Shown here: in pieces, positions 9,437 to 25,318 of the stretch
Layout: each line of letters starts with the position of its first letter
Numbering within the stretch: the stretch's first letter is position 1
Assembly: GCA_029225065.1 (NCBI GenBank)
Contig: JAQXVT010000027.1
Location: 62,001-126,000 of the forward strand
Source of the DNA: Lachnospiraceae bacterium
GTDB taxonomy: Bacteria; Bacillota; Clostridia; Lachnospirales; Lachnospiraceae
Direction of reading: 5' to 3'
Length of the DNA: 64,000 bases
The notes under the pieces: model-generated
What the model was told of the DNA's origin: nothing
Database searches by the model: none
The model's input: the letters and a program-made list of their open reading frames with translations, nothing else
Program-made: the position numbers and the translations under genes

Positions 9437-9912
9437 CTGCCCTCACCTCGCAATTCTTCAATTAATTCTGCCGCCTTCTCCGGCGTCATCTTTGGATGTA
9501 CATCTTCATTTACCATCATCGTCGGTGCAAGTCCGCACGCGCCAAGACAGGAAACGGTCTCAACAGTAAAAAGCATATCGTCTGTCGTATGCTTTTTCTT
9601 GCTCAGGCCAAGCTCCTTGAACAGTGCTTCCAGAATCGGCATCGATTTCCGGACATGGCATGCTGTACCATCACAGACCTTAATCACGTACTTTCCTTTT
9701 TGTTCGAACGAGAAATTCTCATAAAATGTCGCTACGCTGTAGGCCTTTGCCTCCTTCACACCGATCTCTCCGGCCACATATGTCAGTAATTCTCCCGGAA
9801 GATAACGATAGACTTCCTGGATATCCTGCATGATCGGTATCAGTGAAGACGGCTTTTTGCCATAACGTCCTATGATCTCATCCGCAACCTGATAATAAGA
9901 CTGATCCAGCAT
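9433..9912 (-). CDS. hydC: Hydrogenase subunit HydC (NuoE-like)
   Basis: HydC is the small thioredoxin-like [2Fe-2S] subunit of the HydABC hydrogenase. At 159 residues it has the NuoE length. The four cluster cysteines lie in CDGTACHVRKS and CLGACGLAP, with the family-typical continuation TMMVNEDVHPKMTPEKA. It is first in the hydCBA operon, about 57 nt after the inferred transcription start, and overlaps hydB by 4 bp. Confidence 0.95.
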   Translation of the reverse strand: MLDQSYYQVADEIIGRYGKKPSSLIPIMQDIQEVYRYLPGELLTYVAGEIGVKEAKAYSVATFYENFSFEQKGKYVIKVCDGTACHVRKSMPILEALFKELGLSKKKHTTDDMLFTVETVSCLGACGLAPTMMVNEDVHPKMTPEKAAELIEELRGEGR

Positions 9913-10004: not shown

Positions 10005-10213
10005 CCTTTTTCTTATATATTTATTATTTAACAATCATTTTTCTGTATTTTCTCGTCATTTTAAAGTTTTTATATGTATATTTTTTATAATACCAAACAG
10101 GAGAATCTGCAAAATCCATGTATCTTTTTCTCATTTAGTAAATCTATCCCTCTAACACCGTAAAATAAAAAAGACATCTGCCAGCAAAGTAGATATCTTC
10201 CTGATTCTAATCA

Positions 10214-10266
10214 GCAAACAAAAACACAGCCCCGGACTGTATTGCGGAGTACAGTCAGAAGCTGTG
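10214..10266 (-). terminator. Terminator ending the cobalamin riboswitch transcript
   Basis: A two-part stem is visible: GACTGTA/TACAGTC (10235-10241 with 10250-10256) and CACAGC/GCTGTG (10225-10230 with 10261-10266), separated by an internal loop. On the minus strand it is followed by TTTTTGTTT. It lies about 230 nt beyond the B12 box. Confidence 0.75.
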
Positions 10267-10497
10267 CAGTATAATCGTACAGATCGCCTGCGGAATGTCT
10301 CTCTGTACGAGGTCCAGAAATTTCCGGTGCTGCAACACCGAAAACCTGAACTCAAGGAGGTATATTGTGTATATTCATTGCCCTCGAGACAACATTCCTT
10401 CAAATTAATTTCATTTCGACTACCCATGTCTGAAATGACTGGCTTGTTTGCCAGTTCGGAGTGTTTCGCTCTACCGGGAGCGCTTCTCACATACCAA
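10266..10497 (-). ncRNA. Hairpin-rich non-coding segment downstream of the cobalamin riboswitch
   Basis: No frame longer than about ten codons with a plausible ribosome binding site exists here on the minus strand. Successive hairpins are visible: CGCTC/GAGCG, ACTGGC/GCCAGT (loop AAACAA), CATTTC/GAAATG, CTCGAGG/CCTTGAG, TTTCGGTG/CACCGGAAA and CGTACAG/CTGTACG. A CCUCC sequence, complementary to Shine-Dalgarno sites, lies near 10358-10362. It could be a riboswitch-controlled small RNA, a long expression platform, or the remains of a lost gene. Confidence 0.45.
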
Positions 10498-10665
10498 GCA
10501 GGTTTCCTGACTTACAGATCGATACTCGACTTCTCCTTCTCGCTCTATGGGGTAAGCAATGGAATCCTCGAAGTCTCATTCCCTGTATACAGTGGCCGGA
10601 CCGCTCAGGCATCTCACCTGATTCCCTCTCAGATACTCAAACGTTTTTCTGAATATCTTCACTTC
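10470..10665 (-). promoter_or_regulatory. Cobalamin (B12) riboswitch aptamer
   Basis: On the minus strand the conserved blocks occur in the right order: GAGGGAAT, GGTGAGATGCCTGAGCGG, GGCCACTG, then the B12 box AAGTCAGGAAACCTGC at 10498-10513. These match the cobalamin riboswitch consensus. A strong promoter lies just upstream. Boundaries are approximate because the P1 stem was not resolved with certainty. Confidence 0.9.
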
Positions 10666-10694
10666 GTACGGCAAATCTCATTTACACATTACGT

Positions 10695-10723
10695 ATGATA
10701 TCATGACTCCCTGCATGTGTCAA
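10695..10723 (-). promoter_or_regulatory. Sigma-A promoter of the cobalamin riboswitch transcript
   Basis: TTGACA (10718-10723), 17-bp spacer, TATCAT (10695-10700). The predicted transcript start is near 10688, about 25-40 nt before the aptamer. Confidence 0.85.
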
Positions 10724-10969: not shown

Positions 10970-11578
10970 TTATTTCTGTTCCAGTGCAGCCTTACGCGCA
11001 TCGATATATTCGCACATCATGCGCACCGTCTCATCAATGCCGAGCCTGCTGCTGTTGATAGAAAGCTCATAGCATCTGGAATCGCCCCAGTGCATCTCGC
11101 AGTGGCTGTTGTGGTATTTCTTACGTCTGCGGTCCTTCTCATCAATAAACACTTCCGCATCGTGATGGTTCATGTGATGCAGATTCATGATTCGCTGGAT
11201 CTTTGCTTCCTTGTCTCCAAGAATGAAGAACGTAATCAGACCATCTGTGATGCCTTTCAGCTTCGTCTCCGCGCATCGTCCGACTACTACGAACGACTCT
11301 CCCGCACTCGCCTTTTCCTTCAGGAAATTAAACTGAAGATTTGCGATGTTGTTCGCCGGTGAATTCGTCATCCCTCGCACGGTTCTTGTCAGAAACATGT
11401 TGCGCTTCTTTTCATCGTACTCCTGCAGTGTACTGACATCCAAATTTTTCTTTGACGCAATCTCATCAAGAATATTATGGTCGTACAGCGGCAGTTTGTA
11501 AATTTCTGCCAGCTTTGTAGCAATCTCATGTCCACCGCTTCCATATTCACGGCCGATGGATAAAATAATCTGTGTCAT
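10970..11578 (-). CDS. Cytidylate-kinase-like family protein
   Basis: The 202-residue protein starts MTQIILSIGREYGSGGHEIA, the P-loop variant (GREYGSGG) of the AAA_26 cytidylate-kinase-like family, followed by LYDHNIL and VVVGRCAE. It is not the canonical Cmk, which begins with a GPAGAGKST-type loop. Members are common in gut Firmicutes and their physiological substrate is unknown. GGGGGC lies 8 nt before the ATG. It follows the permease gene by 16 bp and ends at a strong terminator, so the two form one operon. Kinase activity on a nucleotide is only inferred. Confidence 0.85.
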   Translation of the reverse strand: MTQIILSIGREYGSGGHEIATKLAEIYKLPLYDHNILDEIASKKNLDVSTLQEYDEKKRNMFLTRTVRGMTNSPANNIANLQFNFLKEKASAGESFVVVGRCAETKLKGITDGLITFFILGDKEAKIQRIMNLHHMNHHDAEVFIDEKDRRRKKYHNSHCEMHWGDSRCYELSINSSRLGIDETVRMMCEYIDARKAALEQK

Positions 11579-11594
11579 ATGCAGCGCCCCCTTT

Positions 11595-12950
11595 TTAAAA
11601 GTATCTTACGAAGATTACAGCAATCGACACTGCGATTACAATCAGCGTGGCCGGAACCATCGCCTTGCAGTATCTGCCCCACTTAATAATATACCCTTCT
11701 TTTGCCGCAGTTGCAATACCAACTACGTTTGCAGAAGCACCGATCGGGGTTGCACTTCCTCCGATATCAGTTCCCATTGCAAGACCCCATGCAAGCACAG
11801 AGAGTGCCACTCCCTGGGAAGCTGACAGCGAACTGATAATCGGAATCATCGTCGCCGCAAACGGAATGTTGTCTACGAATGCGCTCGCAACTGCCGATAC
11901 AATTACAATAATCGCAATCATTAGCATCGCGTTGCCATCACTGATCTTTCCGATAAAATCTGCAAGAATTGCCAGTATACCGGTCTGCTCCAGGCCGCCA
12001 ACTACAACAAATAATCCAATGAAAAACAGCAGTGTTTTATAGTCAATCTTTTTCACAAGACCCACTGCTTCTTTCCCTGCTGCAAGCAAGGTCGCAATGG
12101 TAATGATCACACCAATACAGGAAACAGTCAGTCCGGTCTGTGCATGTGTCACAAGCATCACAACCGCACATGCAAAAATGATGCTGCTGATAATAAATCC
12201 CTTTTTATCTGTGATTGCCTCAGATGGGTTCGGAAAGCTTTCTGTATCAAGCTCGGCAGCAGCAGCTTCTTTCAGCTTTCTGCCAAACACAAAATAGAAA
12301 TATAATACGACCAGCACAAGAGAAATCACGGCAATTACACCGGTATTTGTCACAAAATCCGCAAAGGAAAATCCAAGGGAGGTACCGATAATAATGTTTG
12401 GCGGATCTCCGCACATCGTCGCCGAACCGCCCAGATTCGCACAGAAAATTTCCGACAGAATCATCGGAATCGGATTAAATTTAAGCAATTCTGCCAGTTC
12501 AATCGTAACTGCGGCCAGGAACAGGATAACCGTGATACTGTCAATGAACATTGCCAGCACGAAAGACAGCAGCATAAAGGTCAGGAACAGCGGTACTACC
12601 TGGTATTTTACCATTTTTGCAAGGCGCATGCACAACCAGCGGAAAAATCCTACTCTTGCCAATCCTTCTACCATAATCATCATTCCGGCTACAAAGACGA
12701 TTGTCTCCCAGTTGATTCCGCTCGATGTCTCAGAGCTTGTACCTCCCGTATACCAGAATCCTTTTGTAAAAAAGCATCCAAGATTGAGTGTTTCTGTCAC
12801 TGCACTCATGCTCCGAAGTCCTACTCCAAATACCAGTATGAGTGTCAGCAGTGCACACCCCAGTGTGATAATGTGTCGTTCCCATTTTTCTGTGATGATT
12901 AAAATGAACATCAGCAAAAACAGAACCACAGCCAAGATCTGTGCAAACAT
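11595..12950 (-). CDS. ArsB/NhaD superfamily permease (SLC13-like anion or Na+/H+ transporter)
   Basis: This is a very hydrophobic 451-residue membrane protein with about 11-12 predicted helices. It contains two related half-repeats, seen in the paired hairpin motifs GGSATMCGDPPNIIIG (about residue 170) and DIGGSATPIGASANVVG (about residue 400). These are typical of the ion transporter superfamily that includes ArsB, NhaD and citrate/dicarboxylate carriers. Motif similarity alone cannot fix the substrate: arsenite is unlikely without ars neighbours, and Na+/H+ antiport or a small anion is possible. AAGGAGG precedes the ATG. It is first in an operon with the kinase-like gene. Confidence 0.85.
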   Translation of the reverse strand: MFAQILAVVLFLLMFILIITEKWERHIITLGCALLTLILVFGVGLRSMSAVTETLNLGCFFTKGFWYTGGTSSETSSGINWETIVFVAGMMIMVEGLARVGFFRWLCMRLAKMVKYQVVPLFLTFMLLSFVLAMFIDSITVILFLAAVTIELAELLKFNPIPMILSEIFCANLGGSATMCGDPPNIIIGTSLGFSFADFVTNTGVIAVISLVLVVLYFYFVFGRKLKEAAAAELDTESFPNPSEAITDKKGFIISSIIFACAVVMLVTHAQTGLTVSCIGVIITIATLLAAGKEAVGLVKKIDYKTLLFFIGLFVVVGGLEQTGILAILADFIGKISDGNAMLMIAIIVIVSAVASAFVDNIPFAATMIPIISSLSASQGVALSVLAWGLAMGTDIGGSATPIGASANVVGIATAAKEGYIIKWGRYCKAMVPATLIVIAVSIAVIFVRYF

Positions 12951-24288: not shown

Positions 24289-25230
24289 TTAAACCAGAGC
24301 TTTGATCATCTTGGAGATCGTAGCAACGGATACCGGGTGCTTCAGAATAACAGCGTTTGATCCGGAAGCAAGATCTGCTGCTGCAGTTTCAACTTCCATA
24401 TCAATTCCACGCTCTTCTGTCGGTCCCCATTCCGGCATATCTTCCTCGGTGGCAACAGACTCTTTTACGCCCCATGTCTCGGACGCAACCGGAGTAATAA
24501 TCGGCATCTGCAGTGTCGCATCACCCTGCTGTAATGCGGCTGCTTTGATTCGGTCCATTGTGGAAACTACATACTCATAGCCGTAACCAGCTGCTGCAGT
24601 ACCCACGTTCATAACGATAGATTTTGCATCAACGCCAAGCTGTGTCAGCAGTACGTTTAACTGTTTTGCAAGGTTGATATCATCGGCAGACTCAGCACCT
24701 ACGATCTGCTTGTAAGCAAGACCTGCTGAAGCGCCGACATTTTTGTAGTTCTCTTCTTTTGCTGCAAGCATAACAGCATTTTTTCCGTTGAGTACCTCAG
24801 ATGCCTTTGCAAAGATCTCAGCATCTTTCTCAACGTTCTTACATCCGCAAACCACGATCGGAAGATCTACCGCATCCGCAACTTCTTTTACGATATTGAT
24901 CAGTTCATCGGTTGGTTTGTTCTCGCCATTCGGATCTCCGCCTTCCAAATGGATGCTTAAGAAATCAACGCCTTCGAAGGTTGCAGCCTTCTTAGCCATG
25001 TCTACGACTGTTGAACATCCTTCATAATATTTCTTTACGCACTCCGGCTCAGCCTCAAGACCGCCGTCTGTGATCTCGATACCTACCTTCGGTGCGTTCT
25101 CGATCTCAGCATCGAATGTGTAAAATGGTAATACATTCTCTCCGCCAAGAACGATTGCTTTGTCGCCAGTGCCCATTGTCAGTGTATTGATATTGGCACT
25201 GAATTTTCCTGATTTTGCAGTAAACGGCAT
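24289..25230 (-). CDS. acsD: Corrinoid iron-sulfur protein small subunit AcsD
   Basis: This delta subunit of CFeSP is a TIM-barrel that helps bind the corrinoid and docks with AcsE and AcsB. The protein is 313 residues. Recognisable segments are NTLTMGTGDKAIVLGGENVL at the start and LSIHLEGGDPNGENKP in the barrel. The start at 25228-25230 is chosen because AAGGAGG lies upstream; a longer upstream frame is rejected. The spacer to acsB holds a row of hairpins. Confidence 0.96.
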   Translation of the reverse strand: MPFTAKSGKFSANINTLTMGTGDKAIVLGGENVLPFYTFDAEIENAPKVGIEITDGGLEAEPECVKKYYEGCSTVVDMAKKAATFEGVDFLSIHLEGGDPNGENKPTDELINIVKEVADAVDLPIVVCGCKNVEKDAEIFAKASEVLNGKNAVMLAAKEENYKNVGASAGLAYKQIVGAESADDINLAKQLNVLLTQLGVDAKSIVMNVGTAAAGYGYEYVVSTMDRIKAAALQQGDATLQMPIITPVASETWGVKESVATEEDMPEWGPTEERGIDMEVETAAADLASGSNAVILKHPVSVATISKMIKALV

Positions 25231-25318
25231 TGTTTCGTTACCTCCTTGATTGTACATGCCTTTATGGAACACGGAAAGGTGTCCCTATGGCAAATGAATA
25301 TGTAAAAAATTTATTTTA

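Follow-up and report, generated by a model that had tools for sequence, protein, structure and literature searches.

A putative B12-responsive small RNA of acetogenic Lachnospiraceae with acsD as candidate target

A cobalamin aptamer and its tail upstream of hydCBA

The element described here lies on the minus strand of the window, i.e. the whole stretch of 64,000 nucleotides that was analysed. In its own direction it reads as a promoter-like sequence, a cobalamin riboswitch aptamer, a P13-like hairpin, a conserved core and two terminator-like hairpins, followed by hydC (Table 1). An earlier note, made by reading the sequence, had claimed a strong promoter, a well-formed B12 aptamer and a good terminator at this place, and all three were recovered. 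The covariance search that it had proposed matches RF00174 as a full model (positions 1-189) at E 6.4e-21, with 89.9 bits where the gathering score is 31.5. The first terminator-like hairpin was given by a scan, for which the chance expectation in that stretch is 0.7 terminator-like hairpins and 3.5 promoter-like sites; the second was recognised by eye and is missing from the scan list because its loop exceeds the length allowed by the tool.

Table 1. Features of the element and of its candidate target in the window
Feature	Positions	Strand	Basis or remark
Sigma-70-type promoter TTGACA-17-TATCAT	10695..10723	-	11/12 consensus match, with TG
Cobalamin riboswitch aptamer RF00174	10480..10681	-	covariance-model match
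P13-like hairpin, loop GGGUA	10411..10438	-	could kiss aptamer loop L5 (UACCC)
Conserved non-coding core GGAAUGUUGUCUC..GCAA..UACAC..UACCUCCUU..P-B hairpin..P-C	10276..10398	-	alignment and covariance model
Proposed pseudoknot helix, 5' strand	10388..10398	-	pairing in aligned sequences
Proposed pseudoknot helix, 3' strand, within P-C loop	10292..10299	-	pairing in aligned sequences
P-C hairpin CGUACAGA/UCUGUACG, UUCCGCA in loop	10276..10309	-	alignment
Seed UACCUCCUUGA	10352..10362	-	complement of acsD ribosome-binding site
Intrinsic terminator-like hairpin, loop CUCCGCAA	10223..10243	-	hairpin scan and alignment
Second terminator-like hairpin and U-run	10167..10199	-	by eye
Candidate target site UCAAGGAGGUA at acsD Shine-Dalgarno	25239..25249	-	complementarity
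acsD, CFeSP / acetyl-CoA decarbonylase-synthase subunit delta, proposed target	24289..25230	-	NF040759

A non-coding tail of about 250 nt separates the aptamer from the first terminator-like hairpin. The tail (10500-10205) has a folding z of -3.86 relative to shuffled sequences, and the "six further hairpins" that the earlier note had counted in it are roughly right. hydC starts at 9912, past both terminator-like hairpins. That hydCBA has its own promoter beyond the terminator is only plausible, the candidate TTGTTT-17-TATAAT (10004-9976) having been seen by eye and being absent from the promoter scan list. Judged by these consensus matches, the unit would be a non-coding RNA with its own promoter and terminator and without an ORF, and we infer that it is transcribed. 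On the other side, between folD and the element, the window contains a PF13189 cytidylate-kinase-like gene and a CitMHS/ArsB-type transporter gene (10970-12950), a pair that was found in only one of 39 other loci (G025).

The claim that the transcript has no reading frame held up, as the core has no constant frame in relatives. Two ORFs overlap the tail, one of 112 aa on the minus strand and one of 144 aa on the plus strand, and neither has a Pfam match. As seen by eye, in-frame stops and indels of 1-2 nt in the core differ among relatives; the frame of the window stops after six codons where other loci read on, and the indels are not multiples of three. A coding tail was rejected because of these varying stops and indels and the lack of a Pfam match. 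Nor did we retain a possible gene on the other strand, behind the invariant AAGGAGGUA: read by eye, its frame meets stops within few codons in L163 and L063.

The tail gave no match above any Rfam gathering score, and its annotation is possible now. A full-length match to the FTHFS motif (10342-10237, minus strand) reached 19.8 bits against a gathering score of 72.6 (E 2.7) and was discarded as probably due to chance; fhs is present in the same cluster as this weak match. Searching the literature by title and beginning of abstract, among papers outside subscription, we found no report of such an RNA. Two acetogen transcriptome papers, in the parts available, describe cobalamin riboswitches with intergenic start sites and name no such RNA (PMC6239172, PMC5651825).

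Conservation, genomic context and company with acsB

Using the 531-nt element as query in 47 same-genus genomes, we obtained matches in 42, some of them chiefly in the aptamer. The context was read at 40 loci, one per genome and including our own; G006 and G008, where the element is split at contig ends, belong to the 42 and are outside the 40. Downstream of the aptamer, 39 of these loci have the core word GGAAUGUU[N]UCU, and the exception, L150, ends at a contig end. Two alignments (A1, A2) were built from 37 sequences, leaving out L134 and L150 (cut at contig ends), L135, and the second aptamer of L120. The 37 aligned tails share 52 invariant columns and the invariant or nearly invariant blocks GGAAUGUU[G/A]UCUC, GGCAA, UACAC, UACCUCCUU, GUACAGA, UUCCGCA and UCUGU, with variable stems between them.

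Compared with shuffled sequences, the local stems are stable, with a mean z of -3.2 for P-B and -5.8 for the terminator region (n = 38). The proposed pseudoknot helix is paired in 99.4% of cells over 36 distinct sequences; four of its nine pairs never vary and five vary on one side only. Together with P-C, pairing is found in 99.0% of cells, mostly through invariance, and covariation therefore tells little. RNAalifold on the whole core yields a weak consensus because P-B aligns poorly. The non-coding tail is probably pseudoknotted.

This conservation bears on one reading of the earlier note, in which the tail is what remains of a riboswitch-controlled transport gene. The genome has seven RF00174 matches, and for each of the six other aptamers a gene start can be read by eye in the 420 nt that follow, as would be expected if a gene had once stood here too; the core covariance model finds a single copy in this genome, the element itself. 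However, the invariant columns of the tail and the lack of a common reading frame in aligned relatives speak so strongly against such remains that we consider them extremely improbable. Another gene at this place together with an unconserved tail, named by the note as counter-evidence to its small RNA, was looked for, and none of the 40 loci read shows it.

Promoter-like sequences upstream of the aptamer are shared by part of the genus. At 22 of 38 loci, our own included, the score is at least 10/12, and at the 16 others it is below 10; the mean is 9.0 compared to 7.6 for shuffled sequences. The words are mostly TTGAC[G/T]-17-TATAGT, those of the window being TTGACA and TATCAT.

Within the stretch fetched, folD is found upstream at 28 of the 40 loci, mostly together with fchA. 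Downstream, hydC is present at six (our own and those of G004, G025, G026, G031 and G036) and spoIVA without hydC at 24, where in L120, L123, L144 and L153 it appears only past a gap of 1-4 kb; neither gene was seen at the remaining ten, several because the contig ends. Since folD and fchA are kept upstream and the downstream gene varies, the unit retains a Wood-Ljungdahl neighbourhood while the next gene changes. The earlier note had also proposed a very long cis leader of hydCBA, the genes downstream here. Indeed, hydC comes next in the window and at five further loci of the genus, as well as outside it (L043, L063 and, by eye, L161), but terminator-like hairpins intervene, spoIVA takes its place at most same-genus loci, and in L163 (by eye) and L061 the next gene is convergent. 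With hydC downstream at so few of the 40 loci, this candidate was rejected and a cis leader is very unlikely; the tail is neither debris nor a hydC leader. In three other loci of the genus (L136, L142 and L145), a gene about 40% identical to hydA lies directly upstream of the aptamer.

The element is also found outside the genus. A sequence pattern matched six of 397 family genomes, namely G005 and five from outside the genus, compared to one for the reversed control; it misses our own genome, which has an extra G, and its count is therefore too low. The five other Lachnospiraceae genera (G167, G186, G224, G249, G295) carry shorter versions of the core, each directly 3' of an RF00174 aptamer (L160, L161, L163, L168, L169). 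The core covariance model, run on 299 family genomes, matched nine: our own, G005 and seven others. Among these seven, the matched locus has an aptamer only in G167, G224 and G295, and none was found at the matched loci of G072, G173, G196 and G186. A search by hydC gave three more loci (L044, L043, L061), all with an aptamer; L043 belongs to the Hominisplanchenecus lineage. At aptamer loci, the model scores 20.9 bits in L063, whose core is the same as the G186 copy, 20.3 in L044 and 8.4 (E 0.25) in the divergent L061; it did not detect the tail of L043, which was recognised by eye.

Carriers of the element mostly have acetyl-CoA synthase (acsB, PF03598). Genomes of the genus have it in 15 of 16 cases and carriers from other genera in 5 of 5, compared to 2 of 20 controls; the 16 and the 20 were hand-picked, mostly for completeness. 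The one same-genus genome without acsB, G029, is also without the element; G073 and G074 have acsB and lack the motif as searched. The main idea of the earlier note, a B12-responsive small RNA in an organism whose carbon fixation depends on corrinoids, gains support from this comparison, and we are highly confident that acetogenic Lachnospiraceae have here a conserved non-coding RNA linked to a riboswitch.

acsD as a candidate base-pairing target

The earlier note had also remarked that a CCUCC stretch could pair with Shine-Dalgarno sites and had proposed a target prediction, from which a specific candidate emerged. Among 58 ORF starts scored in the window, acsD has the lowest duplex energy with the core (-23.2, the next being -21.7), and its ribosome-binding site UCAAGGAGGUA is a perfect complement of the seed UACCUCCUUGA. 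The gene (NF040759, 486 bits for a cut-off of 430) is the first of the acsD-acsC-acsE block, which encodes the corrinoid iron-sulfur protein and its methyltransferase. In the predicted folds, the openness of the seed exceeds that of an average base only slightly: 0.49 compared to 0.35 when the core is taken by itself (higher in 31 of 37), and 0.45 compared to 0.38 with the whole tail (higher in 27 of 37).

In the whole of its own genome, the 11-mer TCAAGGAGGTA has two occurrences, one within the element and one at acsD, compared to four for the reversed control. In G005, G006, G028 and G045, which have the seed UACCUCCUUGUG, four of five non-self hits to the complement are at acsD. For CACAAGGAGGTA, 9 of 11 non-self hits in nine same-genus genomes are at acsD; these genomes were chosen knowing that most have it there, and the informative figure is therefore the small number of other sites, 2 of 11. 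The 11-mer ATGAAGGAGGT is not unique in G295 and G224, where two and seven further sites are present in addition to those at acsD and in the element.

AAGGAGG is a generic Shine-Dalgarno sequence, and 7-9 nt of the match between seed and acsD are therefore unspecific. A base-pairing RNA with other or many targets, acting as a general anti-Shine-Dalgarno RNA or mainly on acsC, fchA or a gene outside the window, would agree with a seed that fits any strong AAGGAGGU, with the weaker cognate excess of acsC described below and with one fchA site that pairs over 15 nt. Against it, AAGGAGGTA has only 20 sites in the genome, the element included, and none of them that precedes an ORF of at least 100 aa has a longer match than acsD; we judge such other or wider targeting improbable. 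The pattern AAGGAGGTATN{0,8}ATG had no match in this genome. In L161 (G224), the hydC start carries AAGGAGGAUUGCGGAUG, for which CCUCCUU and UCCGCA of the RNA are both potential partners; this does not apply to the hydC start of the window.

Seed and target site vary together in part. Across most of the genus, a seed that runs on as ...CCUUGUG is matched by CACAAGG in acsD, and G167, G224 and G295 combine ...CCUUCAU in the seed with AUGAAGG in acsD. Smaller fitting swaps are GUA/UAC in G001 and G030, GUU/AAC in G046 and GA/UC in G000 and G025. Over 43 genomes (the duplicate L063g removed, G035 left out for want of upstream sequence), contiguous pairing averages 10.63 for cognate and 9.76 for swapped partners, and the observed sum was reached by 0 of 5000 shuffles overall and by 127 of 5000 within groups. 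A comparison of 11 genes was made with a separate start finding, on 38 genomes for acsD and leaving out cooS, fhs and hydB, which had too few genomes. There acsD ranks first and gives the clearest signal (10.53; 0 of 2000 overall, p 0.006 within groups), with spoIVA at 9.45 (p 0.019 overall, 0.0205 within groups), acsC at 9.08 (0.0065 and 0.02) and acsE at 6.86 (0.037 and 0.19). Given the weak signal within groups and the values near 0.02 for spoIVA and acsC, shared ancestry accounts for part of the covariation; the G:C/C:G swap between genera may be one event.

Some genomes do not fit. In G032, G037, G038, G041 and G042, a seed with UUA faces CACGAGG in acsD, a mismatch beside the seed core. 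The pairing extends over 10-11 in G002, G003, G004 and G023, over 9 in G249 and L043g and over 5 in L061g. Apart from these, the conserved seed appears to be matched by a conserved complementary site at acsD. The divergent version of L061 (G444) has CCUCCAUCAA and a seed that does not match its acsD, and its target may differ. acsD was not found in the element carriers G026, G034, G040 and G043, and it is present in G012 and G039, where the search found no element; gaps in these six assemblies, which are 71-92% complete, may explain part of this mismatch.

The RNA could instead bind a protein, as a sponge or antagonist, with the match to acsD being incidental. Pairing with acsD does not account for the strongly conserved structured parts, nor for the UUCCGCA or UCCGCA loops that recur in the P-C loop (37 of 37), near the terminator hairpin (31 of 37) and in P-B (18 of 37; 10300-10223 in the window, and relatives). 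These repeated loops have the look of additional seeds or of a mark for protein binding, and a second target for them, sought within the window, gave no clear result. EutX of Enterococcus and Rli55 of Listeria offer a precedent: as far as the consulted parts of the sources go, a B12 riboswitch there precedes a stand-alone non-coding RNA, which is shortened by B12 and sequesters the protein EutV via ANTAR hairpins. However, a complement of 11 or 12 nt that is almost confined to acsD in our own genome and in G005, G006, G028 and G045, and that changes with acsD between genera, speaks against an incidental match, and we hold a protein-binding role to be unlikely, though less so than other or wider targeting. 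For the dual-hairpin site of EutV, no pair of 6-base loops of that type was seen by eye in the RNA. All in all, acsD seems a reasonably probable base-pairing target.

A proposed cobamide-dependent switch and its relatives

The explanation that we prefer, with moderate confidence and on the strength of sequence comparison, is a trans-acting base-pairing small RNA, gated by a B12 riboswitch, that would repress acsD when corrinoid is scarce. In such a mechanism, the 5' cobalamin riboswitch would gate the production or the folding of the conserved tail, which would be ended by the intrinsic terminator. With plentiful cobamide, the bound aptamer would stabilise P13 through L5-L13 kissing and form a terminator ahead of the core, and with scarce cobamide the full RNA would be made. 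The anti-Shine-Dalgarno segment UACCUCCUU, together with a few lineage-specific bases, would then pair in trans with the acsD ribosome-binding site and block translation, and the cell would halt synthesis of a corrinoid protein that it cannot fill. More broadly, we put forward with guarded confidence that this B12-switched RNA matches CFeSP synthesis, and hence Wood-Ljungdahl flux, to cobamide supply, the seed and the acsD site coevolving.

The P13-like hairpin, just ahead of the core, could kiss aptamer loop L5. L5 carries CCC in all 42 loci where it was extracted, of 46 (L061, L154, L155 and L156 not extracted), and the P13 loop is GGG(U/G) except in L149, where it was not found so; the two covary little. 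Kissing between L5 and L13 has been described in cobalamin riboswitches, in the part of the source available (PMC9600662). At least five of the eight bases after the P13-like hairpin are T at 6 of 8 other-genus loci and at 8 of the 37 loci of the genus in which the hairpin was found; most loci of the genus, that of the window among them, have a weak U-run. With such a U-run, the hairpin resembles the B12-stabilised terminator of EutX and Rli55, and P13 as such a terminator predicts an RNA that is on without B12 and off with it. As the U-run of the window is poor, termination may be weak or gating structural. B12-OFF precedents exist in Rli55, EutX and AspocR, according to the same partial sources, and repression of acsD under low B12 is the polarity to which we give slightly better than even credence.

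The element thus resembles EutX and Rli55, judged here by sequence, in having a B12 aptamer and a stand-alone non-coding RNA near the B12-dependent pathway served. It differs from them in its candidate action, pairing at the acsD ribosome-binding site in place of EutV capture, and in its neighbours, which are Wood-Ljungdahl genes. The Listeria AspocR, as its report describes in the part available, is a 1,400-nt antisense RNA of pocR with an upstream B12 riboswitch, made at full length without B12 and thought to base-pair and affect translation. Such pairing is what we propose too, but our RNA would be short and trans-encoded, with a short seed; no recognised gene lies opposite, the ORF on that strand having no Pfam match. 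The Listeria SAM riboswitches SreA and SreB, also from a partial source, give RNA that pairs in trans with the leader of another mRNA, as a riboswitch-derived RNA is proposed to do here. SreA is the terminated product of an operon's cis riboswitch, made at high ligand, whereas no gene seems to be controlled in cis by the riboswitch of the window.

RsaE/RoxS and LhrC are Gram-positive small RNAs with C-rich loops, whose C/U-rich single-stranded segments cover Shine-Dalgarno sequences. They share such anti-Shine-Dalgarno segments with the RNA of the window and, unlike it, are not known to have a metabolite-gating riboswitch.

B12 riboswitches driving non-coding RNAs are thus already known; those reported, in the parts of the literature consulted, belong to the use of ethanolamine and propanediol and either target a protein or work as a long antisense RNA. 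If true, a short B12-gated trans-acting RNA aimed at the corrinoid protein of CO2 fixation would be new both in its mode of action and in the pathway it serves. It would also provide a post-transcriptional link from cofactor to apoenzyme in acetogenesis, and gut acetogenesis would depend on cobamide supply via a testable switch. Finally, one same-genus locus, L120 (G023), contains a second B12 aptamer-like match (2045-2174), which lies after folD, without the core, about 3.5 kb before the element.
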